Of a DNA stretch of 64,000 bases, positions 16,751 to 59,658 are shown piece after piece. The notes beneath the pieces were generated by a model. That model ran no database searches. It saw only the letters and a list, made by a program, of their open reading frames with translations, and had not been told where the DNA came from. Within the stretch, counting starts at the first letter, position 1, and each line of letters starts with the position of its first letter. This DNA comes from Alternaria dauci. Lineage: Eukaryota > Ascomycota > Dothideomycetes > Pleosporales > Pleosporaceae. The stretch lies in assembly GCF_042100115.1 (NCBI RefSeq), contig NC_091276.1:2108001-2172000 (forward strand). The letters are read 5' to 3'. The translations under genes were made by a program, and so were the position numbers.

Positions 16751-16852
16751 TCAAGCGTCCACCTCAACGTGTTCCTCGACATTCTCTTCAACGTCCTCTC
16801 CAACGTCCTCTCCAACTTTCTCTTCAACGTTCTCCTCAACACCCTCTTGCTC
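16741..16852 (-). repeat. Degenerate 12-bp coding minisatellite
   Basis: Units of about 12 bp, close to CAACGTCCTCTC on the plus strand, recur at least seven times. On minus they encode the acidic tetrapeptide series EENV, EEKV, GEDV, GEDV, EENV, EEHV at the C-terminus of the overlapping gene. Confidence 0.75.
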
Positions 16853-19004
16853 AGCAACAAACTCCTCGCCACCGTCAATGACCAACTTCTGAGGCTCAAC
16901 ACCTTGCAGAGCCAAAGCAAGCATGTGAACATTAGCCAAGGTGTAGTCAGCATCATGCTCAATGCAATACTTGACACAACGCGTGAAGATACCACCATCC
17001 TCGCCCTCTTTAGGATGCTTGAGCAGTCCCTTACCCATGTCGTGAATTTCATAGTCAACAACACCCTCGAGCTCATCGTCCCTGTACTGCATCATATCCG
17101 TAGCGGTAATATCATCCGCATTCTCAATCTTGGTACGGAACGCCTCTTCCCAATCGTCGCCGTACAGGGCTTTACCTCGGCCGATAGCAGTAATGCACTT
17201 GACGGAGCATGTGTTGCGCAGATATCCGCCCTCGATGTCGCGGTGGGAGTTGAGAACGTCGACGATGCCGGCGGGGCCCCAGTTGCGTGCGTAGAGGCGG
17301 AGTGCAACAGGGGGGCGTGCGAGAGACTGGAAGAAGTAGACAATGACCTCTGTGTCGGTGAGAGGGACGTTGGGGACTATGGCGCGCGAGGGCGGCATCG
17401 ACTCCCTGAGTGCGTGGTTCTTGCGCTTGTGGATGGATGTCACGCTGCGCTTCTGGGTGCTTGGGGGTCCGATGCGACCGGGAGTGATGGGAGACCTTGG
17501 AAAGCCTGCGGTCGGTGTGGCTAGGTACATTGATCCCATGGTGCCCGCGAGCTGACCCGAGGTGGGTGTCGTCAAGTTGGGGAAACCGGCGGTCATGTTT
17601 CCGGTGAGGTAGCCAGACTGTTGTTTGTCGTTAGCATCCAGTAGTGAAAGTCTAGACATGAGGAACTTACATCGATCTTGTTAGAGGGAGTGGCCATGCC
17701 GAGAGGTGCGGTGTGCTTTTTGCCGTCCGGGATCTTAACCTTCAGAGCCTTTCGTGCCCTGGTTTTCTCGCCCTTTTTGTTCTTTTTGTTAGCAGCCGGC
17801 TTGCTACCGGAAATCTCATGGTCTTGAGGACTGGGGCTAGACAGCTGGAATGTCTGGAAGGGTTCGTAGCGCTCTCTAGTTGGAGTGCGCGGCGTAGACA
17901 GGCCAGAGGCGGTAGCGTCACGGTAACGAGTTGTGGGACCTGGAGCTGACCTGGACCCTGCAGTGACTTCGTTGACGAGTGCCACAACGGTGTTGCGGAG
18001 AACCACATTGTCCATTTCGGCCTTGTTGAAACGGGCAGTCAGTGTATCAAGCGCCTCAGCCCTGTTACGGGTGAAGGCCACAAGGTCGTGGATCTCCTCG
18101 GACTCTGATGTAACCAGTCAGCCGGGAGGTTCTCACGGAAATATGATGTAGTGAGACTCACTGGAACGCTGCCTCCAAGAGCCGTCTAGCTGCAATTGCA
18201 GCTTTGGAGGCTGCTCAGAAAGCTGGTCTGCCTGCTGCGCATCTTCTGCCATGAATGGCGGAAACGGGAGTGGCAGCTCCTGCTGGCTGCCGAAGGGATC
18301 CTGGGACACTGTCTGGTCCAGATTCTGCTCTGTGTATGTGTCAGCCATTCAGTTCTTGAGGCAGTTGATAGCAATTGTATGCATGTAGATGCCAGTGAGC
18401 TGCTATGCCACTTGGTGACTGCGTTCTCATATTGATGGCTGAGTGGACTCAGAGTACTCACCTTGACGTGGTGCGATCACGGCAGCGTATGCCGGAAAGT
18501 ACAAATCCCTATAAAAATGCGGATTAGCCCGCGGTTCGTCGTCACGCATGTTGTCACTTGAATGGCGGGACAAAGAGGTTTTGAGGTTCGTGAAGGCTGA
18601 GTGGTTGTGTGGGCAGTGTTGTGATGGTTTATAGCGACATCAAATTTTGCCGCACGGGCGGTTGCCAGGGAGGAAACTCCAAACAAGATGAGAAAGACGA
18701 AAAACATGAAAGTGAGGGTGAAAACTTACCTTGAAGAGTGACCGTCCAGCCTATACTTGCGAGGTGAACTGCCTTGGTACACACTGTTGTTGCTGACGCT
18801 GCTCGCTCTGCTGGTTCCATGCTGCTGCGCAAAGATACTGTTGGGTAACCATACAGTTGGTTCGACATCCTCCTCTTTGTATGTCGATGCAGCAGACGAT
18901 GTAGAAGCATCATCGGCGAGCTCTGCTGGAGGCAGTGTAGAAGTCCGCAGAATTGCCCTTAGAAAGGTCTCCTGGCTCTCTTCTCTCTTGACAACTGAAG
19001 CCAT
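16751..19004 (-). CDS. Unrecognised LTRCV-family protein A1 with coiled coil and acidic repeat tail
   Basis: Five exons on minus: 19004-18730, 18508-18462, 18329-18162, 18104-17671 and 17617-16751 (596 aa). All junctions are GT-AG and phase-consistent. N-terminal 250 residues are Ser/Gln/Pro-rich. A short amphipathic stretch (EALDTLTARFNKAEMD) suggests a coiled coil, and a Lys/Arg-rich patch (KKNKKGEKTRARKALK) looks like a nuclear signal. Residues about 393-465 contain LTDTEVIVYFFQSL...VALRLYARN and a later AIGRGKALYGDDW. Residues 509-548 contain HPKEGEDGGIFTRCVKYCIEHD. Both blocks recur in the genes at 30348, 34296 (minus) and 34865. The tail is the acidic tetrapeptide repeat. I know no named domain matching these blocks. 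Function is unknown; a nuclear role is inferred from composition only. It is divergently oriented to the reductase gene downstream. Confidence 0.72.
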
Positions 19005-22353: not shown

Positions 22354-23823
22354 ATGACCAGATTCACCGAAGAGCAGTTGCGGCAGCAGTGGATGTGGAA
22401 GCAGTTGACTCCAGAGCAACAGCAAGCACACCGGAATCGTTCAGCTCAGCGTGCTTCTCAACCGCAGTACGGGCAGCCACAAGGACATCAGCAGCAGCCT
22501 CCGCAGCCTCAACAACAGCAAGACGGGCAACCAGAAGGACAACCATCTCCACAGCGGCAGCAGCATTTGCGCCAACAATGGCAGTTGCGTCAGCAGCAGA
22601 ATGCCCAACGGCGACCGAACCCTACACAGTTCCCCGCGCAGTCTGTCAACAACACGCAACTTCCTGGTTCCGGTGTCATGGCGCCTCCCTTAAGTCCAAA
22701 CCGTATCGGAGTTTTCTGGCAGGCTCAGGCTCCACCACGCTCTCTACCCAACGCATCTTCTTCGAACATTTTATCGGGTGCGAATATTATTATGACGGGA
22801 AATGGCCAACAGCAACGCCACGGTGCAGCTCAGAGTCCTTCGACCAACAGAAACAGCGTGGCGAGGCCATATCCACCAAGTCCGCTATCTGTACCCTCCC
22901 CGACTCCCACTTTGACGAGGACCACTTCGTCCCAGAATGGGGCAATGGGACAAACATCGACGAATGCTACCTCGCCCGCTCGATACGGAAAGCCATCAAC
23001 ACCTAGCGCCAACTCACATATGCACACTCTGTCGCCGTCTCCCTCGCGAACGCAGAGCGCTGGCACGGGTCAGCAAGGACAACAGACCGCTCGCTTTCAA
23101 CAATCACCTCCCAAACAGGGCCATCCGCATGCGCAAACGAAACAGCAATTTACGCAGTCACATAACGGACCGTCTCCAACCACAGGTCAGAAACGCCAGG
23201 CAACAGACGCGCCTGAGGGTGCCAGGCCTGCAGACAAGAGGCCAAACCTGATTGCACAGTCTGGGACCGTCAACCACGCCACCCTCATACGCGAAACCGC
23301 TGTTACATCTCATCAGCCAGATGGATACCGTCAAGCGAATGGCATACCTAACGGCGCACCAAACGGCGTTGCACCGCATACGCGGGATTCCAATTCACAG
23401 CTTCGCGAGCAGCAGGCCAAGCTTGAGGCACAGCGTGAGGCAGAGCGCCGGCAGAAGCGCGAGTATCAAGCTAGAGTAGCCGAACAAGCTCGTGTCGCGG
23501 AGGAGCACCAAGCCGCCTGCGCCGCCGCCCTCCAGCGCGAGAGGGACCACAAGCGAAGGCAAGAGCTGCGAAATGACCCGAGCGCAAACTTCCGCCATAT
23601 CCTCGAGGTCTACAAGCTCATGCCGCTGACCAAGAGCGAGTTGCCCAACAGATACCTGACGGGACTGCTCGCCAACCGGCTCATGCCCATGGACGTCGAA
23701 AGCGACCTTGCGCTGGCGATCACGTTCGCCAAGGACCATTGGGATTACTACGGACAGTGGCCAAAGGATGTGAGACGATTTGCAGGCTATGAGAAGGAGA
23801 GGAGAGCCAAGAATCCTGCTTAG
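22354..23823 (+). CDS. Unrecognised Gln/Pro/Ser-rich protein ending in an LTRCV-like segment (A5)
   Basis: Single exon, 489 aa. Residues 1-330 are low-complexity Gln/Pro/Ser sequence. A charged Arg/Gln/Glu helix follows (about 350-415, QREAERRQKREYQARVAEQ), then a compact C-terminal block with DLALAITFAKDHWDYYGQWP and KDVRRFAGY. This aligns by eye with the DLTRCVKYA...FPxD segment of the neighbouring family (D-L-x-x-x-V/I-x-Y/F-A, then W/F-P-x-D). The TAG at 23821 is followed by 58 more open codons in the same frame, to TGA at 23998. They encode a protein-like, Trp-rich piece (EIEWRAFWQMQYEDFTKR), so the true or ancestral protein may be longer. No known function. Glutamine-rich composition suggests a transcription-related nuclear protein, by inference only. 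Confidence 0.6.
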   Translation: MTRFTEEQLRQQWMWKQLTPEQQQAHRNRSAQRASQPQYGQPQGHQQQPPQPQQQQDGQPEGQPSPQRQQHLRQQWQLRQQQNAQRRPNPTQFPAQSVNNTQLPGSGVMAPPLSPNRIGVFWQAQAPPRSLPNASSSNILSGANIIMTGNGQQQRHGAAQSPSTNRNSVARPYPPSPLSVPSPTPTLTRTTSSQNGAMGQTSTNATSPARYGKPSTPSANSHMHTLSPSPSRTQSAGTGQQGQQTARFQQSPPKQGHPHAQTKQQFTQSHNGPSPTTGQKRQATDAPEGARPADKRPNLIAQSGTVNHATLIRETAVTSHQPDGYRQANGIPNGAPNGVAPHTRDSNSQLREQQAKLEAQREAERRQKREYQARVAEQARVAEEHQAACAAALQRERDHKRRQELRNDPSANFRHILEVYKLMPLTKSELPNRYLTGLLANRLMPMDVESDLALAITFAKDHWDYYGQWPKDVRRFAGYEKERRAKNPA

Positions 23824-24000
23824 GAAGCTGAATCACAGAAACGACATGACCCATCGCCCAGCGATACTCAGAAGGCAATGGCGGATGGTATCGCTCCAGT
23901 CGATCCATCGCTGGTGGAGATTGAATGGAGAGCATTCTGGCAAATGCAGTACGAGGATTTCACCAAGAGGAACCCTGGTTTTGCCACGCGTTGTCTGTGA

Positions 24001-24800
24001 ACCACGGCCAGAGCTGCGTCTTGTTAGGATTTGGTAACGCGTTGCATGTTGACTTGGTGGAGGAAACAGGCAGACGCTGGTGGTATCATTCATGGCATTG
24101 ATTTGGCTGGACCGTATCTTGTCATCACTTGCATTGTTCTCGGTCTACAAATTCACATTACAATAGAGATAGTACAGTTCTACCGTACATTAAAGTAACC
24201 TATCCACTTGCGACTGTCCCTGTGACAAGAACGCATGAAGGAAACTTGCTTCATCGCTTTCACAACTGTAGCGTCCGTCGCCCACAATACAAGAGTCGCA
24301 AAGCACATACATGAAAAGAAGATCTTTGCCTTTCGAAACGTAAACGCCACGAATGATCCTACCAGATCTATTAGACAACATCGCGGTGGCAATGCTAAAC
24401 CGGGCGCGTGAAAGTAGAATCACCGAAAGGTACCGATACCTTGCCATTTCAGTGAATTGAACCATGACTGGAGGACCTCCAAGGCTCCTGCTCCGCGCGC
24501 TCTGTTTATACTTCTCCATTTGTGACTGATCTAGTCTGTTTGATCTATAGTAGAAGTGAACAGGGAGTGTATTGGGAGCTATCCGGGCCAAATTGCAGGG
24601 TCTGACTAGCTCGTGATCCCTTCTATGACACTATTTGGCCGCGCCGTTTCCAGACGCGACTATACCTTGCCTATCTCAGCTCACTTACTGTGAGGTAGGG
24701 AATGACCAATACCACTAGAGGGCTATTAACAAAGTCCACATCGTGCACAATTTCCTTCAACTGAGACTTGTCACAACACGATAGGACATTCGCCGCGACC
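24001..24800. other. Intergenic spacer
   Basis: No gene supported. Sequence is somewhat AT-rich and holds only short frames. It contains the promoter of the interrupted gene at 24801. Confidence 0.45.
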
Positions 24801-26837
24801 ATGTTCCTCAACAACACTTCAAAGTCAGCTGCCATGTCAGCTCAAACCAGCCAGGCTGCCCCTATAAGTACATCCAAATTCAACCGTCCCAACAAGAGAC
24901 GCCGCTCGCCAGAATCACCGGAGTCAGAGCGACCTGCTCTCCGCTCTGGCGCTGACTCATCGAACGGACAAATCTCCCCAGCATCTGAGCGAGAAGACGA
25001 GCGATACTTGAGCAACACCGCCAGAAATCACAATGAAAACGTAGCTCATAAAGATAGGCGCCAGCGCGTCTCTGGCGAACTCAACCTTGTTCACAACAAC
25101 GGAGTGTGTCACCCGTCCGACCAGAAAGAAACGCGACAGTCGCCCGCAAAAACTATAGGGCGGTCTAGCACTAATGCCACTGTGCCTAAACAAGATCAAC
25201 CACGCATAGGTATTGCTACCTTGCAACCCGTGTTCTTTGGCATCGCATCTTCCCGGCCAAATGCCTTGCGATCATCCAAGCTCGGTAAACATCTCACACC
25301 CCCTACGAGCCCTATCGAGGTACCAGTCGCTGAACTAACAAACATCGATTCTTCACCTCCCAATATCGACAACGAGATGCTCTTCAGACCGTTTCAAAGC
25401 CTCGAAGAGGATGGGACAGTCTTCAGGCCCTCAAGATCGGCATCTTACGACGCACAGGTTACAGTCAATGAGCCATGGCAATGCCAGGAATTTTCTCAGG
25501 GCGATGAGACGACACTTCGGGAGTTCAATAACCACCAAGAGCTACCACCAGATGCTTGAATCGTCACTACATCTGGAGTAGCTTCAACGATGGTACCAAT
25601 AGTCCCATCCTGGATTGCTGAGAATTCACGATACTCCATCGGGATAGACATGGCCTACAGAGGAGGGTATGATCCTGAACACCCACGGAACTACGAGCAC
25701 TACATCGCCCGGTTTACCGCCCGACCTGCATATCCTCGAGCAAAAGAGTATGAGTACTGCCCAATGCCAGAAATGTTGGATGTCGAGATGACGAACCAGC
25801 GGTTAAACTGGGTGGTTCCAGATGATGGCGAAGCTCCTCGTCGCTTGCGGGAACTGCCGGTACCACCACCGCACATTGATTCAGAATTGGCACGTTGTGT
25901 CCGTTTCGCGCAGTCAGATGCGCAAAGACGCGTGGATTGGCGAGCCCACCCTAGCCATGTCGCTGAGATCATTCGGCGTACCAACTTTTATGGAATGGAG
26001 TTACTGATCAGCCGGGAATATATGCGCATATCTTGTCCTCCAACCATAGATGAGTTTGAGCTGGCTATGGCAACTCGGCTAGCACATGCGTCTTTTGGGA
26101 AAGATCCAGTCGCCTACATTGCGGCTGATGTACGCGCTTTGGCAGATTATCTTGTGCGAGATATTCCTTCAGCAATGTGTCTTACCCTGAACGACGAAGA
26201 AGACCTTTTCAGCAATTTTAGCAGATTCTATCGAGCGGAGTTTGCAGATAAGCACCCACCTTTTGATGAGATCGGTCTGCCGACATGGCGTTTACTATTG
26301 AAGGGTGAGATGGGCATACCTTCGCTCAGGGCACAAAGCCTACGAGCCATCATTGACTCTATCGAAGAACAAACTGCTCAAGCCTTGATCGATGGAAGGA
26401 ATGTGTGCTCGCTGGCAAGTAGAGTATCTGATGAAGACGCTCATCTGAACAATGAGAGTGCAACCAACTACTCTCCATGTTCTGACTTAGATCATAACCT
26501 GGGCGGCAGCAATGTGGATGGTGGGTTCGGCTGGACCATCGGTGAATTCAACGCTGATCTTTCGGACGTTGACTGCATCCGAGGCTGGGACGAATTTAGC
26601 GCGAGCTTGCATTATCAGTCGAAGAAAGAAGGGGCTCTCGGAGAGTTTCTTGATCCCGTCTACGCAGCGGTGGATGGAGGAGCCCTAGAGCCGATGGCAG
26701 ACCTTGATCCATCGCAAACGTTTTGGAGCAATCAGAGTTCGTCGGTCCCATCGGACTGTGCGCAGGACATGAGCGCACCAGTCATCAACGTGTTCTCATT
26801 CGAGGCCTCCACTGTGGAGTCATTTTTTCGGCAGTAA
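24801..26837 (+). pseudogene. Interrupted gene: one reading frame split by a single in-frame TGA at 25557
   Basis: From ATG 24801 the frame runs 252 codons to TGA 25557-25559. The same frame then continues with no further stop for 426 codons to TAA 26835-26837. An ATG at 25590 lies only ten codons after the stop. The first part has a basic nuclear-type signal (NRPNKRRRSPESPESE) and Ser/Pro-rich sequence. The second part is folded in character and contains two stretches resembling the neighbouring family's motif, DSELARCVRFAQ and ELAMATRLAHASF followed by AADVRALADYL. I found no good intron (proper donor, in-phase acceptor) that removes the stop. Either one gene carries a nonsense mutation, readthrough occurs, or the second part is expressed alone. 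Product unrecognised. Confidence 0.5.
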
Positions 26838-27460
26838 GACTGGGACCCATTCAACTTTAAAACCAAGTCGGACCAATGGCTGTGAAGACATGCTGTTCGA
26901 GACTCTCCACTTATGAGTTCAAAATGCGCAATATCGAACTCCCGAGTTCATACCATTGGTGGTGGTGGTGATGGTGCTCGTTTTTTAGCGTATCTTTCTG
27001 TGTGGGTTGTGAGTGGCTTGCGTCCGGCTCGCGTCAAAGACAATTGGACGGAGACACCACAATGCGGATGTTCACAGTAGCCGCACATCTACCGATTAGA
27101 ACTGTTGCGATATCTCCATAGAACATGGTAACAAGGTTTCGCTAATCAGATGGATGGTAGTGGTCGATCCGGTTTGTGGTGGTAGCAGACCTCGGTAGCA
27201 TGGTATGTCGACCTTGGATGATCTCATCGATCGCAACAGTTTCAGAGAGTCATAGGAAGACATCGAACCAATATCTGCGGGTATATAGAATACGAATCCA
27301 ACAGCGTTGCAATACTGATGAAAACTTATCCGACACATTTCCTCCATTTGTAGTTCCAACCTCTTTTGTCCGATTGCGTTCTTGAGATCTCAGCACACAT
27401 CTTCAGCATCAAAGCCGTAAAGAATCGCATCAAGTCAACTCGTCAATAGAGACAGCAGAT
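26838..27460. other. Intergenic spacer with (GGT)n run
   Basis: A short GGT microsatellite lies at 26957-26976. No coding signal. The 3' half is the leader of the AT-hook gene. Confidence 0.5.
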
Positions 27461-30341: not shown

Positions 30342-30347
30342 ACAAAC

Positions 30348-31799
30348 ATGGCGAAGCCACCAGCAACCAAGAAGCTTTCTTCGAAGAACAAAGACGGCTC
30401 AGACCATAGGTCTCCGACATCCATCTTCGGTCCAAATGCAGTCACACGATACCTCTGCATTCCGCGAACCGGCAACATCACCGGCGTGGAGCTTGCGGTT
30501 TTTCTTCCTGAGCTGCTCCGAACTCCTGGCGTCCTCTATCGATTCCTTCAGAACGGCGCCGATGCTCAGACTTTGGCCAAGATCTCTAGTTTGTTCCGAA
30601 CCACAGTAAAAGATCACCACACTCCTGCGATAGCTGCCAACGCCATGCGTCACGTTACTCAATCGACCATGCGCCGCCACCTCAAAGACGACCGTTGGAC
30701 TGAGACTCGCCACAAAGCTGGTTGGTACAAGACTCCCGGGCAGGTTTGGGACCATGACAACCTGACATTCGCCGGCGTCCAGAACTACTGCGAGGACAAT
30801 CCGACGGTCGGCCGCCACAAGCGACGGCCCATTCCCAATGTACGTTTTGCATTACTAGCAGTTGATATCGCGGTGTTTCCCTCTGGCGACGACGAGCTAG
30901 ACCTGACCCGATGTGTGAAGGCAGCTGCAGCCAACGAGGACTTCCCGCTGATGTTTCCACGCGACTATACCTACCTTACGTGGCTCTTAGGTGGTCCTCA
31001 GATTGTACGCTCTGCTCATCGCGACCGCGAACTCTTCAATCGTTGGAGGCAGATGAGCTGGGTAGAGATGCCTTCTGAGTACCAGGTCAACGCTACGCGG
31101 GAAATCGCCCACTACAAGTTCACGACGGAGCAGAAAGCGGCAACTGAACAGTATCTTCAGCAGTGTGCTTCTATCGACAAGCCTACTCTAGATGCTGTCT
31201 ACAGCCGTGCGGGCATGCCAATTTCCACTCCCTATGGCTCATGCATACCTTCAGCCAATGGTAATCTGTCGCCTGTCGACTCTGTGCTCGTTGGCCAGAA
31301 CATGCACAACGCGGCCGTAGATTCAGTACGCATGTTGCCTGAGATGAGTGAGGATAGCATGGACAGGCTGTATTCTAAGTGGCTAGTCGCTCACGGAACC
31401 TCTGATTCTGAGATCCGCGGAACAACTACGTCTACCTCGGACGTTGTGCGTCGCTATCTCGAATCTGATCGCAGTATTCCGGGTCCACTATCTCCAACCG
31501 CCAACGAGACCGTCGTCATAGCGTCCTCTTCTGGTGCTCTCAGCAACACCACTCTCGCTGATGGTTATGAGTCGTTGTCCCCACCTTCGATGGATTGGTA
31601 CCTTGACTACCAGGACAGCTTGACTGTGCCTGTTGGCGTCAGCTACATCGACCTTGAGATGTTGGATGCTTCCGGCCCTGAGACGACCGGTTCTTTCGGC
31701 CCAGAACACAACATGAGGTCTTCCCAAGTTGGTTCGGAAGACACTGGCTTTGACTCATCGGATGGCGTCGGTTGCGCTTTTGCTCCGGAGACACTTTGA
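30348..31799 (+). CDS. Unrecognised LTRCV-family protein A2
   Basis: Single coding exon, 483 aa, behind a leader intron. Residues 27-115 match the first family block: IFGPNAVTRYLCIP, NITGVELAVFLPELL, VLYRFLQNGADA, then AMRHV. Residues 164-232 match the second: PSGDDELDLTRCVKAAAA, FPRDYTYLTWLLGGP and HRDRELFNRW. The rest is Ser/Thr-rich and acidic, with many Asp-Ser pairs. Closest relatives visible here are A3 (minus, from 34296) and the pseudogene at 34865; A2 aligns with the latter without gaps across 33 residues. A GT...AG stretch at 30841-30862 is too short to be an intron and its codons are conserved in the paralogues, so it is read as coding. No homology to a named domain was recognised. 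No transmembrane or signal sequence is present. Confidence 0.75.
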   Translation: MAKPPATKKLSSKNKDGSDHRSPTSIFGPNAVTRYLCIPRTGNITGVELAVFLPELLRTPGVLYRFLQNGADAQTLAKISSLFRTTVKDHHTPAIAANAMRHVTQSTMRRHLKDDRWTETRHKAGWYKTPGQVWDHDNLTFAGVQNYCEDNPTVGRHKRRPIPNVRFALLAVDIAVFPSGDDELDLTRCVKAAAANEDFPLMFPRDYTYLTWLLGGPQIVRSAHRDRELFNRWRQMSWVEMPSEYQVNATREIAHYKFTTEQKAATEQYLQQCASIDKPTLDAVYSRAGMPISTPYGSCIPSANGNLSPVDSVLVGQNMHNAAVDSVRMLPEMSEDSMDRLYSKWLVAHGTSDSEIRGTTTSTSDVVRRYLESDRSIPGPLSPTANETVVIASSSGALSNTTLADGYESLSPPSMDWYLDYQDSLTVPVGVSYIDLEMLDASGPETTGSFGPEHNMRSSQVGSEDTGFDSSDGVGCAFAPETL

Positions 31800-32499: not shown

Positions 32500-34296
32500 T
32501 CACATACCGTCTCTGATAACCTCCTCGCTGACCCATCCAATCTCGTGCCTGTGCGCTGTGATGCACTCAAGGAAATAGTCATACTCGGTCCAAAGGCTAC
32601 CAAACATAGCAAACTGCTGCTTAGCCCAGCGAATGTTCTCAGCCCAGTCACTTGAATCGTTCGGGTGAGGCTGGCTCAGCAGATGAAGCTCGCGGAATGG
32701 GGCGTGGCGGCGGGGACCGTTGAAGCGGGCGTAGTCATAAGCAGACGCGTACATGGCCTCCATAGAGGTGTGAGGGGCAGAGGAGTAAAGGTAGATACTG
32801 AAATCGTCGATCCTGAGGCGGCCTTCTGAGAGGATAGGAGGGGCGAGGAAGATCGGTGGGCGGTTGAGGTACTCGCGCGCGGCATCCATCACATCCGGGG
32901 CATAATCGTTGGTCATGTATGAGGGTACCTCCCGCTGTCGCTTGTCTTTCTGGGGTGACGGGCCGATACTAGTCCAATGTCAGCGCAATGTCTTGTGGCT
33001 GGGGACAACAGATCACGTCATTGAGCTAGAGGACATGATCTAAGTAAGAGACTCACCCTGGGACTTTGAGCTTCAAGGGTCCGCGCTCAGGTACGAAAGC
33101 AGCTTTGATGTTGGATCTAGCCTTACGCGCAGCAAGGCGACCGCGAGCTGTAGGGACGGGCGAAGTGACCTCTTCAGCGTCACTCACGTTGTCCTCGGGA
33201 ACATCATCATCAGGCTCTGACTCGCCTTCTACGAAGTCGTCATCGTCGGTGGATGAATTAGGCGGCGGCGGCAGACGGGATAGCTTCTGTTTCTTTGCGG
33301 GAGTGTCGTAGGGCGAGTCGGAGCAGTCCTTGTCCTGTGACTGACGTCAGTAACATGTTCAGACACTACCATTAATGAGGTGGATCAGAAACCCACTGCG
33401 ATATCTACTTCAGACTCTTCAGTAAAGTTGATCTTCCTACCGACGAGCCTACCGCTCCTCCTCTTGTTGCCATCCAGCACTTTTCCGAGACCATCTCCAG
33501 TACGCTTTTGGGGTGTTGTTGACATTGTAATAGCAACCGAGTCGATTTCGCGGATGAATTTCTTGTTAATGCTGCGCGGGGTTCCGGTCTTACTGTTGGG
33601 AGTCCGACCTTTACCTGGTGTAGACTTGGCGGGTGAAAAGACGTAGTTGTTGTGACGAGCGAACACTTGCCTATCGTGGTGAGCGGGGGTAACAGTGACT
33701 GGTCCACCGAGGTGATTGATGAGGCGCTGAAAGTCGGTGGGGAAAAGCCACACTTCCTCTTCATGCTGAATAGCGTATTTCACACAGCGGGTAAGGTCGA
33801 GTGCGTCATCGCCAGATGGGTGTTCCTTCACATGTTGCGCAAGGACTTTGAAGTCCAACGGCTCACAATCCTCGTTGACCATGACCTTTTTAGGTGTAGC
33901 AGTAGTGATAATCTTAGGATGGGTGCGGTTGGGTGTACGAAAATCGGTTACGCTGAGGTCGTCTTCAGGTCTTGGGATCTCACGCTCATACTCCAAGTGC
34001 GATCCGAAAGTCCAGTCCCGATAGCCTGCGCGCCGCATGGCGTACTGGATCATGACCATAGCAGAGTTGGGTTTGAATTCTTGACCGGATGGCTGGACCC
34101 TAAACTCGTTGATCATAGCGGCGAGGTGGCCAGCTTTCGCACCATGTACAAGAAAGCGGTCGACAACATCGATAGACTTTAGCCAGTGTGGAAGATATGC
34201 CAGTATTTCGGCAGCGGTCATGTTGCCGTCCGGGAAAGGGAGGTTCCAGCTTGGGCAGTTCACGCCGAAGGCATTGTTCTTAGCAATAGCCGCCAT
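32500..34296 (-). CDS. Unrecognised LTRCV-family protein A3
   Basis: Three coding exons on minus: 34296-33397, 33340-33057 (an alternative acceptor six bases later, 33334, is also in frame) and 32968-32500, about 550 aa. Block 1 (residues 9-100): GVNCPSWNLPFPDGNMTAAE, ILAYLPHWLKSIDVVDRFLV, HGAKAGHLAAMINEFR, AMRRAGYRDW. Block 2 (159-212): HPSGDDALDLTRCVKYAIQH, FPTDFQRLINHLGGP, AHHDRQVF. Then a basic Ser/Thr region with GNKRRSGRLVGRK, an acidic run, ARGRLAARKAR, and a C-terminal block containing HAPFRELHLL and DSSDWAENIRW that recurs in the adjacent pseudogene. The ATG at 34320 is also in frame but lies within the predicted leader intron, so 34296 is preferred. Likely nuclear by composition. 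Function unknown. Confidence 0.74.
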
Positions 34297-34301
34297 GTCT
34301 A

Positions 34302-34864: not shown

Positions 34865-36190
34865 ATGGCACCAGGAGCCGAGCCATCTAGGCTCATGCCA
34901 CGATTGAACACAAACCCATGCGACGCACATCATGGCCATGGGCTCGGTCCAACAGCGCCCTCAAATTACCTCCTCTTTCCAGACCGTGCGTACTTGGCAG
35001 CCGTTGAGCACAGGCATATCTTTCGAACAGCGTACATCGCGGCGGCGACGTTGTGGACCGCCTGATCACAAACGGCGCATCATCACATCTGCTGTGATCA
35101 ATAATAAACACATACAGAGATCTGTTGGCGGAATGGAACCAGAACGCCTGTCGTCAAGATATCTGCGAAGCTATGCGTAGAGCCAGGTACAAGGATTGGC
35201 GGTTCAAGGCATATGAGACTTCTCCAGAAGAGAGAGAGTCGATCTGGGACGAGAGCGATCTGGATGTCACAGGCTGTTCAGTGTCCGGACCGGGTGGTGT
35301 GAAGAAGACACCAGTGAGTAATATACCGCTCAAGACCTTAGTCGTGGACGTGTGACGTGAATTGCAAGGTTATGGCGCGCTGGGTTCGACACGAATGGTG
35401 GGATACTTTTTGAACGGTCCACACGAATCGTGGTTTTACCCTCGCGACTATGATGCGGTGCTGCGGCTCGTGGGCGGCGCAGGTCCTGTTCGACACGAAC
35501 ATAGCGATCGCAAGGCTTCCAAAAGATGGACCGGAGTGAGCCCGCCACCATTGTTGAGCGCGTCAACAGATGCCCTGCTTGTAGCAGATGAAAGAAATAC
35601 AGAAGACAGAAAGAAGAACTTGGGTGGCATTGTAGGAGACGCATCAGCAGTGAAGAAACAGAAGAAAATAGACATATTGTCATCAGCAACTCCGCCGATA
35701 TGTGGAACACTAGCACTAGAGACGCCTCAAAAGAGTAACAAATCCAGAGGCAGACCAAAGAGGACAGTAAAGATTGAAGAGGAGCCAGAGTTGGAGGAAA
35801 TTGCTGAAAAGGACGAAAATGCGATGATGCAGGCTAGCCAATACCTACCGGCGACAGCATATGTCGCACCCCCAGAAGACAAGATCATGCCCTGGGAGAC
35901 AGCAACTGAATCAGAGGATGAATCAATCGGTTTGGCGTTCGCAAGGAGAGATCAAGTGGGGGAGACTGATCCGGATAGCGCTTATGCTTTTGATAGCCAT
36001 CGTCATGCCCCACCATACCGACAGCCCTATCACATCCATCTTCCGGATCCAGCGGACACAAGCCGATGGGCAGAGAATGTGTGGTTATCATCTGTGCAAA
36101 CACGCTGTTCCGCTACCCGTGGAACGCATCGTGCAGATTCGGAGAGATCGGGACTGGATATTGGATGAGTTCCTGGCTGAGAGAGAATAG
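34865..36190 (+). pseudogene. LTRCV-family pseudogene A4, divergent to A3
   Basis: Family sequence can be followed across frames. From ATG 34865, frame 2 gives LGPTAPSNYLLFPDRAYLAA, matching A3 block 1. After about 35005 the match moves to frame 1, with GGDVVDRLITNGASSHLL and EAMRRARYKDWRF, then TPVSNIPLKTLVVDV and SWFYPRDYDAVLRLVGGAG. In-frame TGA codons at 35005, 35095 and 35353 and a frameshift between 35000 and 35030 break it. The last TGA falls inside a 33-residue gapless alignment with A2, in which the LTRCV core has decayed to GSTRMV. The tail keeps a hook-like SRGRPKRTVK and a DTSRWAEN block, then shifts frame near 36090. Upstream, TTCTAACCCAGATAG just before the ATG is a relic of the leader-intron acceptor. 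Clearly inactive as a full-length protein. Confidence 0.78.
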
Positions 36191-46497: not shown

Positions 46498-46564
46498 GCC
46501 TTGGTGGCAGAGAATGGTGAAGAGAAGAAAATAGTTTCATATAAAACGCTACATACAATACATC

Positions 46565-47922: not shown

Positions 47923-49266
47923 TGTCGGATTGGTGAAGATGAATTGGATTGAGGTATGCAAGAGGCGACGGCGAGGTTTGGGGGAGATAAAGACAGAATG
48001 CGGAGGCGGAGCTCTTAACATATGTTTGTGGGGCACACAACCGCGACGCAGCTTTTGGGCCGAGGATCTCGGAGCCACAAGTCACGTGTTCTTCTTCTCC
48101 GGCAACGGCCCTGGAGCATCGTCGGACCGTTTTCGCCTCGTCAACACTGGAAGAATAAGCATACTAATCAGTATATACGTTCGTGAGGTTGGAGGACATT
48201 GCTGGGGTCCACACGTACTTGTTGTTTGCTTATCCACAGAACCGCTGCACTGCCAATCCCATCTTCCCCACAATTCGCCGCCACACTACTGAGCCTCTTA
48301 GTCTGGCGCAGCACCTCTGACCTCATCCATTTTGACTTGGCTGCTGCGAAACAATGCTCCTCACACATCCACACCGTTTTCTTCGCACCTGACCCGCTCT
48401 TTCACCGGTCCATGCGAGGCATCAGGCCCTCTACCTCGCGTCGACGCCACCAATCTCTGCGTCGCGGTTTGGCCCCATTGTCCCATCGCATCGCGTCACG
48501 TCTTCTTGGCAAGACATGATGCGCACGAATCCTTCAGTCTCCGACATTGCGTTGCGTTTGACATATACAACGTCTGTATCCCTGCCTATGAAAGGTTACA
48601 TTGTGGGTTGTGTGTGTATGCGGTTAAGAGCTAGTGCATGAAGAACACAGCCTCGTGGCCAACAACACGACCCAATATTGGTGAACTGCGCCGCCAGTCT
48701 GTTATGCCAGCAGAGGGAATTTGGCCCCCAAATACCACCACACCCACACCACATTCCAAAAAGCATGTTTGCACCACCATCACGTTGCCATGAGGTAGAA
48801 GTGCGAGAAAAGGCAGACCCCGCATTTGTCGCGCACGAGTTTTTCCATTAGTGTTTACTTCCATCATGATACCGCGAAGACCAACCACGATGCCATGCAG
48901 AGCTTTTCGGATCCCCTTGTCCTACCGGCGAAGCGAGGCAGATCTAGACTAGCAGACTTACGCCCGACTGTTATCGAAATCTCCCCAAACCCCCTACACA
49001 GGCCAATGACTTGAGAGACGGCTTGAGGTACACCGCAGAATGCATGCTGCCTGCAAGCGCCCACAAATAGACCCAACTCCTGATTGGAGAGAAAAGTGCC
49101 ACTGGCGAGGCTTGCATGGTTGAACGCAACGGAAGCATGGGGGCGGCGGAGCAAGGCTGCGCTTTGACCTCATCCTCCCTATCTTTCCCAGTACTACATA
49201 TGCTCGTCCTGGGCCTCATTGCGATGAACGTCGCCCGCGTTCTTCCAACTGCTTGCATTTTCAACC
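47923..49266. other. Divergent promoter region, thiolase and membrane-protein genes
   Basis: No coding frame is supported in 1.3 kb. It contains the thiolase promoter and, from about 49100, the leader of the membrane-protein gene. Confidence 0.5.
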
Positions 49267-51670: not shown

Positions 51671-52742
51671 ATGAACAGTTCTACCACCGCCGCCCAAGGC
51701 GGTTTCCCATTCAAAGTCCCCACACAGACAGCTCAGAACGGCGCTGGTTCATCGTCAAAGTCTCGCAGGCGCTCGGGTACCACATCAGACCCTTCTGCCA
51801 ATGGAAATCATATCAAAGAATCCAATTCAGATGGCGAGGACGAAGGCTTGGAGCAGTCAAGCAAATTCCCTACGAAGGTCTTGGTTGAGTTGCACAGAGC
51901 GAGGCCCAAAGGGCCTTTCAGGCCATCAGTGGCGCATCAACTCATACACCTGCTGAAAGGCAAGCAGCTACCACCAGACATGTTCCAAAGACCTATCCAC
52001 CCACTGAAGAGCTATGCGACGCCCTCGCAATTCGATCTTTCCAGCCTCACCATCCCGCTAACAGCGAAGGAGATCTTAACAGTAAACCATCTTCTCTTGC
52101 CACTCTATAACGTACTTATATGTATCCAGTTCTTTCCAAACCACGTCGACATTCCCGAAATACAACACAGGTTCTGTCACAGTGACATCAAAGGCTCGTT
52201 TCAGGCCAACTTCATTGTAAGTAATGTTAGGGATTGGCTGTATGTTTGTATTCCACAGAACTAATATGATCGTGAAGAATTCTCAGTACCGTCTCCAGGG
52301 CATAATGATCCTTATACCCATGGATTGTCGTTCGCACCTCTAGAAATCGAAAGCATACTTGGGAGGAGCGTTCCCAACGAAACCCACTACTTTTACCACC
52401 GGTCACTACACTTTCGTACCAGGTGAGGCCAATGGCTTCGACAACGTCAGGATAACCTACCCGCTCATCGACTGTGGCTTCCACGTTCACCCGCGCAACT
52501 TCCCTATGGGCCCCGACAGCGGCCCCTTCACGAAAGCTCTCATACAAGTCCAGCTTGCGGGCAACACGACACTGATGTTGTCTGAGCTCGACACATTTAT
52601 TGCGGCGATGGGCATCAGTCGGGAGCTAGAGGACGGATACACCGATGCAGGTTTCCAGGCTAGACACAGGGTGATGGTAAAGGAGTATAAGGCTTTCTTG
52701 CAAAAGAACGCAGGGAAAAAGAATATTCGATTTGATCATTGA
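51671..52742 (+). CDS. Unrecognised LTRCV-family protein B0
   Basis: Exons 51671-52216 and 52344-52742 (314 aa). The 127-bp intron has donor GTAAGT and acceptor CTCTAG, phase 0 on both sides; other acceptors lead to stops. The N-terminus is Ser-rich with SSKSRRRSG (possible nuclear signal). The middle has FRPSVAHQLIHLLKGKQLPP and LTAKEILTVNHLLLPLYNV. Residues 220-273 contain TYPLIDC, then NFPMGPDSGPFTKALIQVQ and LSELDTFIAAMGI. This parallels FPQGADQGVLTIAVLHARR and LSQLEQYITQAGL in B1 with the same spacing. It is convergent with B1. No named domain recognised; function unknown. Confidence 0.6.
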
Positions 52743-53234: not shown

Positions 53235-54780
53235 CTAGACATCATTGGAAAGTCCTGCTGCCCTCCACCACCTCCTGATCTGATTGTAGCCTGGATCATG
53301 TCTTGGAGCCAGGTCAAGAGTCACGTCGGGAAATAGACGATCGCGAGCCGCTCGATCAGCCTGGACGACTGGAACAAGACTTGGACCTGGAAGGTTGTAC
53401 TGGGTGTTCAAACCCGCTTGAGTTATGTACTGCTCAAGTTGAGACAACCGTACATTATTATGGCCGTGGCGGCGAGCGTGAAGCACAGCAATAGTCAATA
53501 CCCCTTGATCCGCACCTTGAGGGAAGTGTACTAGACCATCGCCTAAGCTGAAGAGGAAGCAGTCGCGAAGATCGTTGAAGTCCACCCTTGCACCAACGCG
53601 GTCGGTATTGATGCCCTCGAGTGTAAAGCCAGCGGGATTGCATGCGTGGCTTTGGGCGCCTGTTCGGTGCTTCTTCATACTGCCAAAGGTATGGGCCCGT
53701 AGGTCTACTGTCCCGAGCGATCGCTGGTAGAACTTTGTATGGATCAGTATAGGCTTTTCAAATGTGAGGGCTGGACACTTACAATTAGCATGCGTAGCAT
53801 GGAGAGACTCCAACCGCCTGCCTCAAATCGCTTCCACAGTGCTCTCCAGGATGAGGCTGCGCGAGGAAAAAACTATTCTTTGGTTAGCTCGTCTTGCGCA
53901 TGCTGAGAATTGAGTGATAATGACTGACTGCAACAATCTCCACCAGGTTCACCTGAATGTTTGGTCCAAGAAGGCGAAGATCGACATGTTCCCACAGTGC
54001 AACACTGTTGAAGCGGCAATACGAGTCAGACAAAGCGCGGGGAGGCAAAGTCGCAGACCGGGGAGTAATCATAAACCAGGCCAGCTTGCGAGACTCCGGC
54101 CACTCGTACAAATGAGTGCCACTCACACCTCCAGGACGGATACCAGCTGTACGGGGGCCCTGGAGGATAGCGACATGGCCTGCTCGGGTGAGAACAATGG
54201 GCTGTATGGGCCGAGCCGCTGGTTGCTGTGGCGCCCTGGGCGCTATGGGAGGGAGTTGGGGCCTACTTCCTTGTATCTGTAGTGGCTGGCGTTGCACTTG
54301 AAAGGCTTGGCTCGCTTTCCAGTCGATGTACTGTAAGTAGTGCGAGAGACTGTGTAGTAGAGCTCGACTCCTGAGCTCAGGTGTATTGAGGGCCTCAAAG
54401 GCCATTCGCACTTCTTGCGGGACGCGCGACCTATACTCAGGTACCAGTTGCAGAAGCCCGTAACACTCGGCGACTAGGATAGGCTCCATTGTCACTGAGT
54501 CCTTGACCCAGTACTGTAGACCGCTCGCTGTGGGTACCATTGCACCGATCTGTTCCAGGCGCTCACTCGAGTTGCAAAAGTCCCCGATGACCTTTCGCGC
54601 GATTGACGAGCGGGTTACTGCTGTGGCGCGGAGCTCATCGCGAGTTATTTCGCCGAGCACTGGCTGCAGGTGGTAGTAGGAGCCTACGAAGGGAGCCGGA
54701 AATCTTCTAGTCAGTACTATTGGACTCAAAGAAGCCATAGAAAGACGGCCGTGACATAACATACCACTGTACTGGTCCAT
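53235..54780 (-). CDS. Unrecognised LTRCV-family protein B1
   Basis: Four exons on minus: 54780-54765, 54716-53935, 53872-53783 and 53723-53235 (458 aa). The first intron is exactly 48 bp (GTATGT donor), so its retention would add 16 in-frame residues. The second donor is GTTGCA, weak, but it falls at the same alignment column as in B2 and B3. Recognisable blocks shared with B2/B3: VPQEVRMAFEALN (early), GIRPGG and a hydrophobic strand before the intron, the small exon containing WRALWKRFEAGGW, and the C-terminal block DCFLFSLGDGLVHFPQG, then ADQGVLTIAVLHARR and NNVRLSQLEQYITQAGL (357-400). The canonical LTRCV is LTIAV here. A Pro/Gln/Ala-rich linker lies in the middle. Function unknown. Confidence 0.66.
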
Positions 54781-55330
54781 TGTGTTGTGTGCGTAGTCAG
54801 TGAAGTCGATTGGTTGGTGTTGATATCAGAGCTTCCTAGGTATGGTAGTTGTGTGAAGAAAAGTGGTTTTATAACTTAAACCCGCAAGAAAACGTGAGCC
54901 ACAGACCATTCAGTCGCTTATAAGTGAGAGCAAGAGGCACGTGAGTACGCATTCCGGCTCAGATCGCGTGAATCAGAGAGCTGTCGGAAGAATCATCGGG
55001 CCCCTGCACCCACGTGCTTTGGAAGCCAATCGGCAGTGTTTTCACTCATATCATGCGGACATTTGATTGCTGAATCGTCACGAAGATACTGGAAAGGACT
55101 GCCGGATCTGCTACTGCTTGTATAGGTCACCCAATTTAGGAAATTTTGGATATGAAGAGCGATATGACACAATGCCCGTATGTAGTTCTCCAGGCGAAGA
55201 GTATGTTCTCAACCTGTGACAAGAAGGGGCACAGTAAGAAGCTGGTACTTCCGTTTGACTGGTTTGTAACCGGGAATAACAGCGTTGCAACTCACAAATG
55301 AAAATAAAAGTACGATTGATGCTATTTGAA
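54781..55330. other. Spacer between tandem genes B1 and B2
   Basis: Promoter of B1 and 3' flank of B2. CACGTG occurs at about 55012, AT-rich elsewhere. No gene seen. Confidence 0.45.
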
Positions 55331-57212
55331 TTACACTGTACCCGAACTCCTTCCATGTCGACGTATGAAGTCCCTATCTATCATATCAAGGAAAGCTCGC
55401 GAAGGCGTATCCTCAACAATAACATTTGTGTCAGGCTGGATTACATCAGCAGCAGGAACGGTGATCCCATGCCTTGCTGCATACTGAACGATCTCCGATA
55501 TCCTGACATTCATGTCCTGAGACACGTTTCGCACATGCTGTACGCATCGCGTGAGGAGCTGGGCGTCGCGACCAGTGGGGTAATTCACCACACCATCACC
55601 TAGATGGTAAAGAAAGTAGTCGTGTAAAGGTCGGTCGGCCGCTTTCTTATCCATTTTCCCCCTAGTTGACATGTTCGAAGGAACATTCGTTGTGAAAGTG
55701 TGCGTAGGCACATCATCCGGTCGGCCATCACGATCGTGGTGGAATGTAGTGCGGTGGTAGTTGCGCGGATTTTGTAGCTGACGGGCGTATGCCTGCTACA
55801 GTGAGCTAGAGCTTTGTATAAAGAGATTTCAAGGTACTTACCATAAAGTCAGCAATTTCTTTCGGTGCCCAGGACTTCCGAATCCGATCCCACAGCTCGT
55901 AGTTTACGGTCTGGTAAGGAAGGAACTAGTTCAGCGTCAGTGATTACCTCGAAGTAAGGTGGATGTACATACAGTCAACATCTCCTGTGCGGTCGTGACA
56001 CAATTGATCAACGTAGGATCAATCGTCCTAGGCGGGGCCACTCCTCTCATTTCATGACGATCATCGGAATTGGCTGAAGCCGGAAGTGTCGCCAACGTTC
56101 TACCCTCGATCTCAAAATGAGCACGAATTTGGCCACGCGACATTGCGACACCCTTGCAACCCCTACCAGAAATATCCACTGTATTTCTAGTTGGGTATTG
56201 GGCCATCATTGCAGCGATGGGGTCCGCTAGAGGAGGCTGGACAGCTACAGGTACTGGGGGGATAGCCGCGGGTACCATTAGTTGACCTTGGGGTGCTACC
56301 GCTGCGACAGGCGCTGCTGATACGGGCCCTATAGATGCCACAGGGGCTGTGTATGCTACAGGGATTGCAGGTGCCACACGGGTTGTAGATGCCACAGGCA
56401 CATATGCGGTTGCAGCGTGTGTGGTAGTGTGATCCTGAGCGGTTGAACCGGATGGGGTTGCTTTAGAAACGCGTTCCGAGTTCGATGACGACCAGAATGA
56501 GAGGGACTGCTCGCTCGTTGGTGCTGTATTCTCGTTGCGGGATCGCTTACGAGTCTCAGTTATGTGCTCCTCTGCAGAGTTATCCTCAGCCATGACTGCT
56601 TTACGCTTCAACGAATGCGCCGCGGAGGTTGTTAGTTGCCCCCCGTGAATATGAACAGCAGCCGGGACACGCGTGGTCTGCTCGAAGAACGCGGCTCGAA
56701 CTTCCTCTAGTGCTATCATCAGATAGCATTGCGGAGTGGTGAGGAAGATTTCTACCCACGCCTCGATGAGTCGAACATGTGGCTTAGGCGTGAAGCAATA
56801 CATTAGGTCGTCATCCCCCTGAACGTCGTTAAGTTGGTTTTGCTGGAAGTCTGCAGAGTACTTGATGACTGCCTCGACTCGACGACGGTGATACTCATTG
56901 CTCTGCAGAAGGCGGTCTTGGCGGAGGTTTCTAGGCGTATAGTGGCCTGGCGTATACGTTACTCTTGGATCGTTCCAAGGGAGGGCCGCAAGGGCCGGTT
57001 GGTGATGGAGCCTGCTGTTGCCATAGAATCCGTTCGCCGTCTGCGTTGCAGGATTAGGAGCATATTGCATAGGCGCCACGGGAGGGCCAACGAGAAAAGC
57101 AGGCATACTGCTACGATTTCCATAGGCTTGAATGGGCGTCAGCGATGCTAGAAAGACGGTACACTTGAAACTTACTTCTCATTGCACTTGGTATCGTATA
57201 CTGAGTATCCAT
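55331..57212 (-). CDS. Unrecognised LTRCV-family protein B2
   Basis: Four exons on minus: 57212-57176, 57126-55973, 55910-55842 and 55795-55331 (574 aa). All introns are 46-62 bp with good consensus, and phases hold. Starts MDTQYTIPSAMR. Early block VRLIEAWVEIF and EEVRAAFFEQT. A nuclear-type signal (KRKAVMAEDNSAEEH, TRKRSRNE) and a long Pro/Val/Ala linker follow. Then GRGCKGVAMSRGQIRAHFEI and EMRGVAPPRTIDP before the small exon TVNYELWDRIRKSWAPKEIA. The last exon has LHDYFLYHLGDGVVNYPTG, RDAQLLTRCVQHVRNV and NVRISEIVQYAARHG (477-530). The string P-T-G-R-D-A-x-x-L-T-R-C-V echoes P-S-G-D-D-A-x-D-L-T-R-C-V of A3, linking the two subfamilies. No named domain recognised. Confidence 0.7.
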
Positions 57213-57954
57213 GGTATTGGAGTCAACCTTGGAATTGTTGTATGCTTCGGATCGGAAGTGTATATAGTCTTTTGACTTGATGTTGGGACAAGGGACGAGA
57301 GGGGCGTGAATTTCACTTGGCGCGCGCTGTGCGGAAAAGAAGAGAGTGCAGAGAGTTCTCGATGCGGTTGAGTTGTTCGTGTGTCTGCTGTTGGCTCTGA
57401 ACTGAACCGCGTGAATCGGACGCTTTTGAGTACAGAGGAGAGTGGCTCGAGCAACGCGCAACGACACTCGCCACTTCCAGGAGCGAATTCGCAATGAATG
57501 GAGGACTACTGGTGAAGGGTAGTGCTAACATCGTAGCCCAGATCGGCAATTGACCGTGTAACGAGAGATTTCACGCGGACCTTGTGTAGAATGAAACGAG
57601 TACCTGACGATGTCCGCAACAGGAGAAAAATATGTTCAGACGATACATGTAACTTCGATGCAGCAGTTGCAAGATATTGAATCGCTCAAAAGTCAATGCG
57701 ATGAAGAAGTCCTGAGCAGACGTTAGATATAAGGTCTTCGAGTCATTTGCGTACGCGCTACAAGACATCGCAAGCGTTGTCACCACAATACCTATACTAC
57801 AACAAACCCCACGTGACTACGCAGCAAACCATAAAAAGTACTCTTAACATACTCTATGACAGCGCATTCGCCGACACCAAATCGTAGATGAGTTCCTGTG
57901 TCTTTTCCACTAGCAAATCATGACTGGCATCTTATGTGAACAATGAATATCATC
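57213..57954. other. Spacer between tandem genes B2 and B3
   Basis: B2 promoter and B3 3' flank. Frames overlapping 57220-57550 on minus lie in the B2 leader and are not supported as coding. Confidence 0.45.
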
Positions 57955-59658
57955 CTATGGGTCTTCACCATTGAACTTGCTGCGGTAATCGTCCTTGATC
58001 ATCTCAAGAAACGCTTCCGACGGCAGCTGGTCCTCAACAGTCAGGTTCTGAAAGTCCATCTGCTGATGCGTTGGCACAGTGATATTCCATCTCTGCGCGT
58101 ACACAGCAGCCTCGCTCAGCCGGACATTTCGATCGCCTGTGACGTTTCGAACGTGGTCGATGACTCGCGTTAACATCTGCGCCTTACGTCCATGAGGGGT
58201 GCGAACCACCCCATCACCCATACTATGGAGGAAGTAGTCGTGCAGGATTCTGTTAGGCCCACGCGCCCCGCTATCCGTGCTAGTATGGCGTAAGGAGGCA
58301 GTAGGAACCTGGGTAGGATGCGCTACACCCCACTCCTTGGCCTTTGCGAAGTGATGACCAATTTTCGAGCGACCGAAAATCTTCGGGGTTTGAAGATCAT
58401 GCACATAGTTCTACAGGAAGGCTTAGTCAGCTTGGTTTCTCTCCGGATTGTTGATATACGCAACACTCACAATGTAGCGAGCTATTTGCATGGGTAGCCA
58501 ATGCTCTATTGCCCGTAGGCACATATGTCGATTGAGCGTGCATATGTTGGAAAAATACTGGTCAACTGTTAGTGCCTCAGCCATAAAAATGGATGATGGA
58601 GAATTTGTACTCACAGTAAAGTTTTCCTCTAGCGACGTTTCGAAAGGACAGAGGGTCACATTGATCGATTCAGGCGTGCGGAAGTTCGACATCTCGGTGC
58701 CAAGTGGAGAGAAAGCAGTAGGTGGCAGCTGATGGATGCTCTTGTGCTCAATCTCGACAAAGGCCCGAATACGCTCAGCGCTCCAGGCTTTGTTCCCGTT
58801 GTCGGTTGGAAGAACACTTCCCGGTCGAAACCCAGGGATATTGATGCCCTTTGCCTGGAGTAGCTGGTTGAAAACTGGCGGAGCCGCTGGATTCTGCTCG
58901 AATGCAGCTGAACCGTCGGGCACAGACTGTAAAGGGAACACCGAGACGCTAGGTACAGGTACTGTGTTTGGATGAGGGCCTGGAGCTAGGGCGAACGCCA
59001 GCTGCACGTGTCCTTGAGATACCTGCTGGCCAGGTTGAACTGGTTGAGCTGGTTGGACAGGTTGAACTGGTGGTAGCAGCTGGGGAGCGGCGCTGATTGG
59101 AGGTGGGGGTCGCTGAACAGCCAGATTCAACGGAGCCGTATGCGACTGAGTAAATCCTGAGGATGGGACTGGAAGCGGACCTGTCATCGAGTTGGCTGTT
59201 CCATCACCCGCAGAGCGCATCTGTTCAGGCCGAGGGTAGCCATGTTGGGATAGATGTTCTGCCACGCTCATGAATTCTGCGAAGCAAGGCCAATGTCCGT
59301 CGACATTGTAGAGCTGTTCCTCAAACGCCGTCCTTACTTCCAGTGGCGCGAGTCCAAGCAGCCGAGGGACGAATATGAAGACCATCATCCACTCTTCAGC
59401 TAAGAGACTGTTTGGCAGCCAGTAACGGTGGCCAGCAGCTACCTCGATGGGTGTGATGGGAAGAAAGACCCATGTAGAGGTATATTCCCAGATACTCTCC
59501 AAGAGAGGGACGATGTGCTGACTTGTCATACATGTGTTGTCAGCCTTGATCAGGTCTACCGTGAGGATAGGCTGAGCCGTTGGGTTCTGGGGTCCGCCGA
59601 TGGGGTTGTTCGAGAGGTGTAGGTCGGACGTCATGGCATCAAATGGAGACGGATTCAT
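57955..59658 (-). CDS. Unrecognised LTRCV-family protein B3
   Basis: Three exons on minus: 59658-58615, 58557-58471 and 58410-57955 (528 aa). Introns are 57 and 60 bp, phase 0, at the same positions as the last two introns of B1 and B2. B3 lacks their small first exon. Early block AEEWMMVFIFVPRLLGLAPL, EVRTAFEEQL. A Pro/Val/Gln linker has tripeptide PVQ/PAQ repeats. Then RIRAFVEIEHKSIHQLPP, the small exon YFSNICTLNRHMCLRAIEHW, and the last exon with RILHDYFLHSMGDGVVRTP, HGRKAQMLTRVIDHVRNV and NVRLSEAAVYAQRW (433-487). B3 and B2 are the closest pair in this last exon. The function is unknown; no signal or membrane segment is seen. Confidence 0.7.

Follow-up and report, generated by a model that had tools for sequence, protein, structure and literature searches.

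A clustered gene family with an apparently new domain in Alternaria dauci

Genes of two sets share one domain

The window analysed here is a stretch of 64,000 nucleotides from the plant pathogen Alternaria dauci (contig NC_091276.1, hereafter C5, positions 2,108,001 to 2,172,000). An earlier sequence-only reading had picked out two sets of genes in it, A and B, that appeared to carry variants of one motif, DLTRCVKYA, within a conserved segment of 45 residues. We found that the segment shared by the A and B genes belongs to a real family with a common domain. The genes concerned, in window coordinates, are as follows.

A1: 16751..18348, minus strand; member, modelled at 495 amino acids (aa), introns 18161-18105 and 17670-17618
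A2: 30348..31799, plus strand; member, one exon encoding 483 aa, with its domain in the N-terminal half
A3: 32500..34296, minus strand; intact member, three exons, 548 aa, introns 33396-33335 and 33056-32969
A4: 34996..36165, plus strand; broken copy, head-to-head with A3, in pieces 35008-35094, 35098-35352 and 35356-36165
B_51k: 51671..52742, plus strand; probable member, 314 aa, one intron 52217-52343
B_53k: 53235..54780, minus strand; member, 479 aa, introns 53928-53873 and 53782-53733
B_55k: 55331..57106, minus strand; member, 560 aa, introns 55972-55926 and 55841-55796
B_58k: 57955..59658, minus strand; member, 528 aa, introns 58614-58558 and 58470-58411

The spliced A3 protein is identical to NCBI ACET3X_006180 of A. 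dauci and is laid out as an N-terminal domain (N-domain), a disordered linker with an RRSGRL motif and a C-terminal domain (C-domain). The 45 residues singled out earlier are indeed conserved, but they are not a unit of their own: they make up the second half of a longer domain of ~175-215 residues. In A3-type proteins, conserved block 1 reads LTAAEI..LP......R..G.....IA..IN..R.....N......MRR.G and block 2, which includes the motif, P.G.DALDLTRCV.YA.....W.FP.DF..L...LGG. The motif is FTRCVKYC in A1 (minus strand), DLTRCVKAA in A2 and DLTRCVKYA in A3 (minus strand), and the B genes carry the variants PTGRDAQLLTRCV, PHGRKAQMLTRV and PQGADQGVLTIAV. In A1 the domain lies near the C-terminus (~16888-17366) with a basic stretch upstream. 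A4 retains remnants of both domains and has three TGA codons within the stretch aligned to A3, in keeping with its earlier designation as a pseudogene.

The A3-type C-domain follows the pattern ..PFRELH.L..P...D.SDWAENIRWAKEQ....W.EYD..L..IT..R...W.SEE.I. Because SDWAENIRWAKEQ resembles DLTRCVKYA, we suspected an internal duplication in which either the C-domain or the second half would be a copy of the first half; four profile-profile comparisons gave expect values (E) of 0.24-0.73, and the idea was dropped.

Several searches connected these genes. With the N-terminal part of A3 as a single-protein query, the whole genome yielded A2 (E 3.1e-19) and A4 (E 1.5e-13), and with B_55k it yielded B_58k (E 2.7e-26) and B_53k (E 1.3e-7). 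For more remote links we used two profiles against 5152 six-frame open reading frames (ORFs) from 244 kb of C5. The first, an A3-family profile of 44 rows, includes one A2-type and two A4-type relatives, with neither A1 nor any B gene among them; the second is built from three B genes and four Alternaria relatives. The A3-family profile matched A2 (E 2.6e-42), A4 (3.4e-12 and 3.6e-9), A1 (1.6e-5 overall, but only 0.0092 for its best stretch) and B_55k (8.4e-4, single stretch 0.0014); among the same ORFs it gave B_58k only E 1.8 and did not match B_53k. The B-only profile matched A1 at E 4.9e-5 (single stretch 7.4e-5) and A3 only at 0.51. Reversed ORFs reached at best E 0.8 with the A3 profile and 3.6 with the B profile, and shuffled ORFs 3.9 and 0.2. 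Because the training set of a combined profile makes its E-values circular for the genes included, and because A2 and A4 have relatives among the 44 rows, neither profile was taken as proof by itself.

Profile-profile comparison joined the two sets directly. The A3 N-domain aligned with the B profile at E 2.9e-6 (probability 88%, 121 columns), and each half did so by itself (4e-5 for the first, 2.5e-4 for the second); the A3 C-domain, compared as a control, gave E 0.48. A1 aligned with the A3 N-domain in hhalign at E 4.1e-8 over 135 columns. A weak link is that of A2, which as a single sequence reached only E 0.055 with the B profile. The claim that A1, A2 and A3 are clear copies is thus borne out, A2 being found by A3 alone and A1 by both profiles, and the comparison of these genes, whose failure would have spoken against a family, did not fail. 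A DNA pattern for the exact motif had no genome match on either strand, which is uninformative since the codons were guessed.

The gene structures agree with this grouping. All three minus-strand B genes have two introns, all in phase 0 and at the same positions of the domain. In their N-terminal exons (within 53235-59658), a second weakly conserved stretch, EVR.AF, may be common to these genes; in BLASTP within the three-protein set, B_58k matched each of the other two at E ~1e-4.

Family members lie on a single contig

The genome, 34.9 Mb in 10 contigs, was queried with A3, A2, A1, B_55k, B_58k and two members that lie far from the window. Counting A4 and B_51k it holds 12 members, all 12 of them on C5 (2.93 Mb), in two groups. 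Rows at E<0.01 fell on C5 only, and at this level A1 and one distant member recovered only themselves. Very diverged members elsewhere could have escaped. The four members outside the window (C5 coordinates) are listed here.

Distant member: C5:1349959-1351665, minus strand; A3 profile E 0.0089 (weakest of the three distant members), B-only profile 7.8e-7
Distant member: C5:1355936-1357975, plus strand; long, highly charged tail
Distant member: C5:1360484-1362040, plus strand; found by the A3-family profile
Further B gene: C5:2175506-2175919, 3.5-3.9 kb past the window end; B profile E 2e-11

The three distant genes form a group at C5:1349959-1362040, ~0.76 Mb away on the same contig. In the further B gene, an intron of the form GTAAGC...TAG, read by eye, follows ...LEMAT at the site of B intron 1.

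A related version of the segment had been described in four B genes. This holds for the three on the minus strand, and the fourth, B_51k, is a probable member with moderate support. Its spliced product scored 12.2 bits, a score reached by 0 of 500 shuffles (the unspliced exon gave E 0.75), and hhalign gave 0.033 and 0.0039. The gene lacks intron 1, and its single intron has the site and phase of intron 2 in the other B genes.

Two other genes once counted with the family did not gain such support. A5 (22354) scored -0.6 bits, and 248 of 500 shuffles of its own sequence did as well. For the interrupted gene at 24801, the second ORF scored 0.8 bits with 6 of 500 shuffles as good; its two motif-like stretches were not supported, and as a genome query it found itself and a row on C9 at E 0.23 only. 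Both genes were absent from the 29 rows that the combined profile returned at E<=10, and on these comparisons membership of the 24801 gene is unsupported. A weak genome match on C7 (E 0.43) was likewise set aside, as none of three profiles gave a row at E<=1 at that locus.

A5 and the 24801 gene score at or close to chance level, as would be expected if all these resemblances were accidents of low-complexity or short helical segments with no common family behind them. That reading has next to no credibility for the set as a whole: E-values in the searches range from 1e-3 to 1e-42, the controls with reversed and shuffled ORFs are clean, intron sites are shared, and the reading is refuted for A1 to A4 as well as for B_53k, B_55k and B_58k.

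Features between the family members, in window coordinates, are these.

22354-23823: A5, a long Gln-rich low-complexity ORF whose C-terminal segment is motif-like at chance level only
24765-26837: two long same-frame ORFs split by a single TGA (25557-25559), with basic residues (KRRR) at the N-terminus; the gene is broken or contains an unresolved intron
27386-28435: ORF with two AT-hook-type GRPRK motifs, between A5/24801 and A2; Pfam AT_hook E 0.62, below the cut-off
46565-48163, minus strand: ORF, presumably thiolase-like, opposite a 419-aa open frame at 47033-48292 on the plus strand

Long antisense frames such as the one at 47033-48292 may mislead gene finders.

The domain matches no family or fold in the libraries searched

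The segment had been thought to match no known domain, and this proved to be so in the libraries that we searched. In Pfam-A and in NCBIfam, which covers prokaryotes, no family rose above its curated cut-off, and the rows shown lay far below it. The 44 A3-family rows picked up 13 stray Pfam families, each in one of the 44 members (best E 0.0073), and no Pfam family was common to more than one of them at E<=1. A search of the open-licence literature found no description of the family. Fungi commonly contain orphan families.

The structure prediction proposed earlier for A3 gave a confident model of the N-domain, with a predicted local distance difference test score (pLDDT) of 92 and a predicted template modelling score (pTM) of 0.88. 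Block 1 is modelled as three short helices (H42-50, H55-65 and H76-89). A two-domain model of the A3 orthologue P0039 reached a pTM of 0.56 as a whole and a pLDDT of 78-98 in the domain blocks; in A3-type proteins the linker is modelled as mostly disordered and both flanking domains as folded. Against the Protein Data Bank (PDB), Foldseek matched nothing at E<7 with the N-domain or at E<6 with the two-domain model; fold searches of BFVD also came back empty, and PDB sequences gave no convincing match. Relative to Pfam, NCBIfam, PDB sequences and folds, and BFVD, the domain is apparently new.

The helices raise the question of whether the N-domain is a remote, unrecognised helix-turn-helix or Myb/SANT-like DNA-binding domain, which would make these genes ordinary transcription factors. 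Block 1 does read as three short helices with a conserved Arg and an IA..IN..R pattern, and the family resembles Myb/SANT and other helix-turn-helix domains in what we infer to be short blocks of helix in which Arg and Trp are conserved. The W-T-E-x-D..L-like stretch at the end of the C-domain may also resemble Myb. The family nevertheless differs from these domains in lacking any sequence or fold match to them: the Pfam result points away from this class, as does the silence of the PDB, where helix-turn-helix structures are plentiful. We consider this explanation unlikely, while giving it more weight than any of the other alternatives.

Part of the family is old and B_55k diverges faster than A3

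To place the family in other species, we used A3 (twice) and B_55k as protein-database queries. The first A3 search, which covered proteins up to ~541 aa, found 117 relatives, including one from Pleomassaria siparia, and the second, with full-length A3, found 147, of which the best 120 were examined. Among the matches listed, identity to A3 was 91% in A. alternata, 76% in A. ventricosa and 62% in Pyrenophora teres; other genera represented were Exserohilum, Stemphylium, Bipolaris, Didymella, Plenodomus and Trematosphaeria (Massarineae). Orthologues of A3 are thus present in both Pleosporineae and Massarineae. The named matches examined all fall in genera that we take to be Pleosporales (the lineage was looked up for three), in keeping with the earlier view of the family as lineage-specific. 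A3-type proteins such as Plenodomus lingam IAQ61_000765, Pyrenophora teres P3342_005922 and Bipolaris sorokiniana COCSADRAFT_94418 have the same N-domain; in the first alignment, 13 of its 44 rows also have the C-domain. For such A3-type proteins the source names seen were only hypothetical, uncharacterised or unnamed.

Physical clustering in other Pleosporales had been proposed as a check, and we examined it through gene-tag neighbourhoods, an indirect test of synteny. In A. ventricosa the A3 orthologue (J4E93_003686) and that of B_55k (J4E93_003699) are 13 gene tags apart, each listed on a contig of 2,112,376 bases. In two Plenodomus species the A3 orthologue is tag-adjacent to an A3-like gene: IAQ61_000765 to IAQ61_000764 in P. 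lingam, and NX059_002792 to NX059_002793 in P. lindquistii. By this measure clustering is found for A3 with B_55k and for A3 with an A4-like gene.

The Plenodomus neighbours are two-domain paralogues, annotated as proteins of 477 aa (IAQ61_000764) and 448 aa (NX059_002793), and are the closest relatives of A4, their broken A. dauci counterpart. When the A4 pieces were searched separately against 159 proteins and 10 references, the two longer ones matched the Plenodomus proteins P0114 and P0115 best (102 and 98.6 bits against 55.5 for the next; 53.5 and 52.8 against 41.6), and the shortest (29 aa) did not discriminate within this set. Since its two longer pieces match the Plenodomus neighbour gene best, A4 looks like an old, decayed neighbour of A3 and no fresh duplicate. 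In a tree of 29 rows, built without P. lingam IAQ61_000765, P0113, A4 and B_51k, the two Plenodomus neighbour genes grouped together (99/100) apart from the A3 orthologues, and A2 grouped (100/99) with P0116, an A2-type relative at 44% identity; support is open at 10 of its 26 forks, and with long branches in six rows its deeper order is unsafe.

These results do not support the idea of a recent local expansion for the A genes. Paralogues in the A set are not each other's nearest relatives once other genera are included: A2 goes with P0116, A3 with the other A3 rows across Pleosporales and the A4 pieces with the Plenodomus neighbour, and three members of the family lie ~0.76 Mb away. Judging from these comparisons, the family is restricted to the order, and part of it is old and anciently clustered. 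The B genes may be younger in origin. B_55k had 11 relatives at E<=10, of which six were named, all of them Alternaria. Because B_55k is 72-74% identical to relatives in other Alternaria species (the A. infectoria group) and 42% identical to B_58k, the split between B_55k and B_58k would predate that between A. dauci and the A. infectoria group.

Rapid evolution, also proposed earlier, fits B_55k more than A3. Between A. dauci and A. alternata, A3 is 86.9% identical overall (N-domain 91.1%, linker 78.5%, C-domain 92.4%) and B_55k 64.8% over its first 250 aa; between A. dauci and A. ventricosa the values are 74.5% for A3 and 56.6% for B_55k. On these identities A3 is conserved, and B_55k is diverging faster relative to A3.

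Such a pattern brings to mind a locus of self/non-self recognition or genetic conflict, whether through incompatibility, drive-like or dosage-sensitive nuclear factors, where selection would push neighbouring paralogues apart and some would be lost, as A4 has been. Strongly diverged paralogues do lie clustered here with one broken copy among them, and B_55k, with relatives only in Alternaria among the named matches, outpaces A3 in divergence. The conservation of A3 through the order is unlike that of a conflict gene, and the Pfam rows include no NLR-, HET- or toxin-like domain; we regard a conflict locus as improbable.

A possible role in the nucleus

The reading that we favour, with a probability of roughly 0.4, is that the family consists of nuclear cofactors of chromatin or transcription; we rank this above a classical sequence-specific factor, since neither a helix-turn-helix nor any other fold in the PDB was matched. 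The proteins would act in the nucleus, where the folded N-domain might bind a common chromatin, DNA or protein partner and the disordered basic linker could provide nuclear import and charge-based contacts. A3, which adds a folded C-domain, would be the conserved core member, and A1, A2, the B genes and the distant group may be rewired copies that differ in their tails. At least A3 and A4 would have been neighbours since before Alternaria and Plenodomus split.

The linker offers some support. Among 48 proteins of at least 430 aa that contain WAEN, 28 have the motif R[RK][SK]-x-RL in the linker and six a looser form, as raw counts. The R-R-S-x-R pattern may be likened to the nucleosome-binding arginine motifs of LANA and CENP-C; the remaining residues of those motifs appear to be absent from the family linker. 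Simple basic clusters occur in 6 of the 10 members examined (A1, A3, B_53k, B_55k and two of the three distant members).

Several observations weigh against a nuclear cofactor role. The linker motif is missing from 14 of the 48 proteins, including every one of the six rows from Bipolaris and the neighbour gene in both Plenodomus species, and A2, B_58k, B_51k and one distant member have no simple basic cluster. An activation tail, considered for A2 and one distant member, was rejected, as 11 of 58 other long ORFs also score at least 16 on the acidic-aromatic measure used for it. Foldseek found no fold that would support a DNA-binding role.

Fast-diverging orphan genes in a plant pathogen could also encode secreted virulence proteins. 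By a simple hydropathy check, none of the proteins has a strongly hydrophobic, signal-peptide-like N-terminus (within the first 40 residues, the mean over 12 residues peaks at 1.59 in B_53k and at 1.14 or less in the others), and the long low-complexity or disordered linkers also argue against secretion, as do A3 orthologues in genera that we take to be saprobes. We rate this explanation as very improbable.

A bolder version can be framed, which we offer as speculation and think unlikely. The N-domain would represent a new fungal class of domain that binds chromatin or DNA and has a fold of its own, and linkage of the paralogues on one chromosome would have lasted for much of the history of Pleosporales, with A3 as a conserved core nuclear regulator and the B genes as rapidly rewired, possibly conflict-driven partners. 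If this were true, an order with many crop pathogens would carry a conserved, confidently modelled domain that no searched library recognises, and these linked, diverging paralogues would offer a tractable system in which to study the origin and continued clustering of orphan domains.

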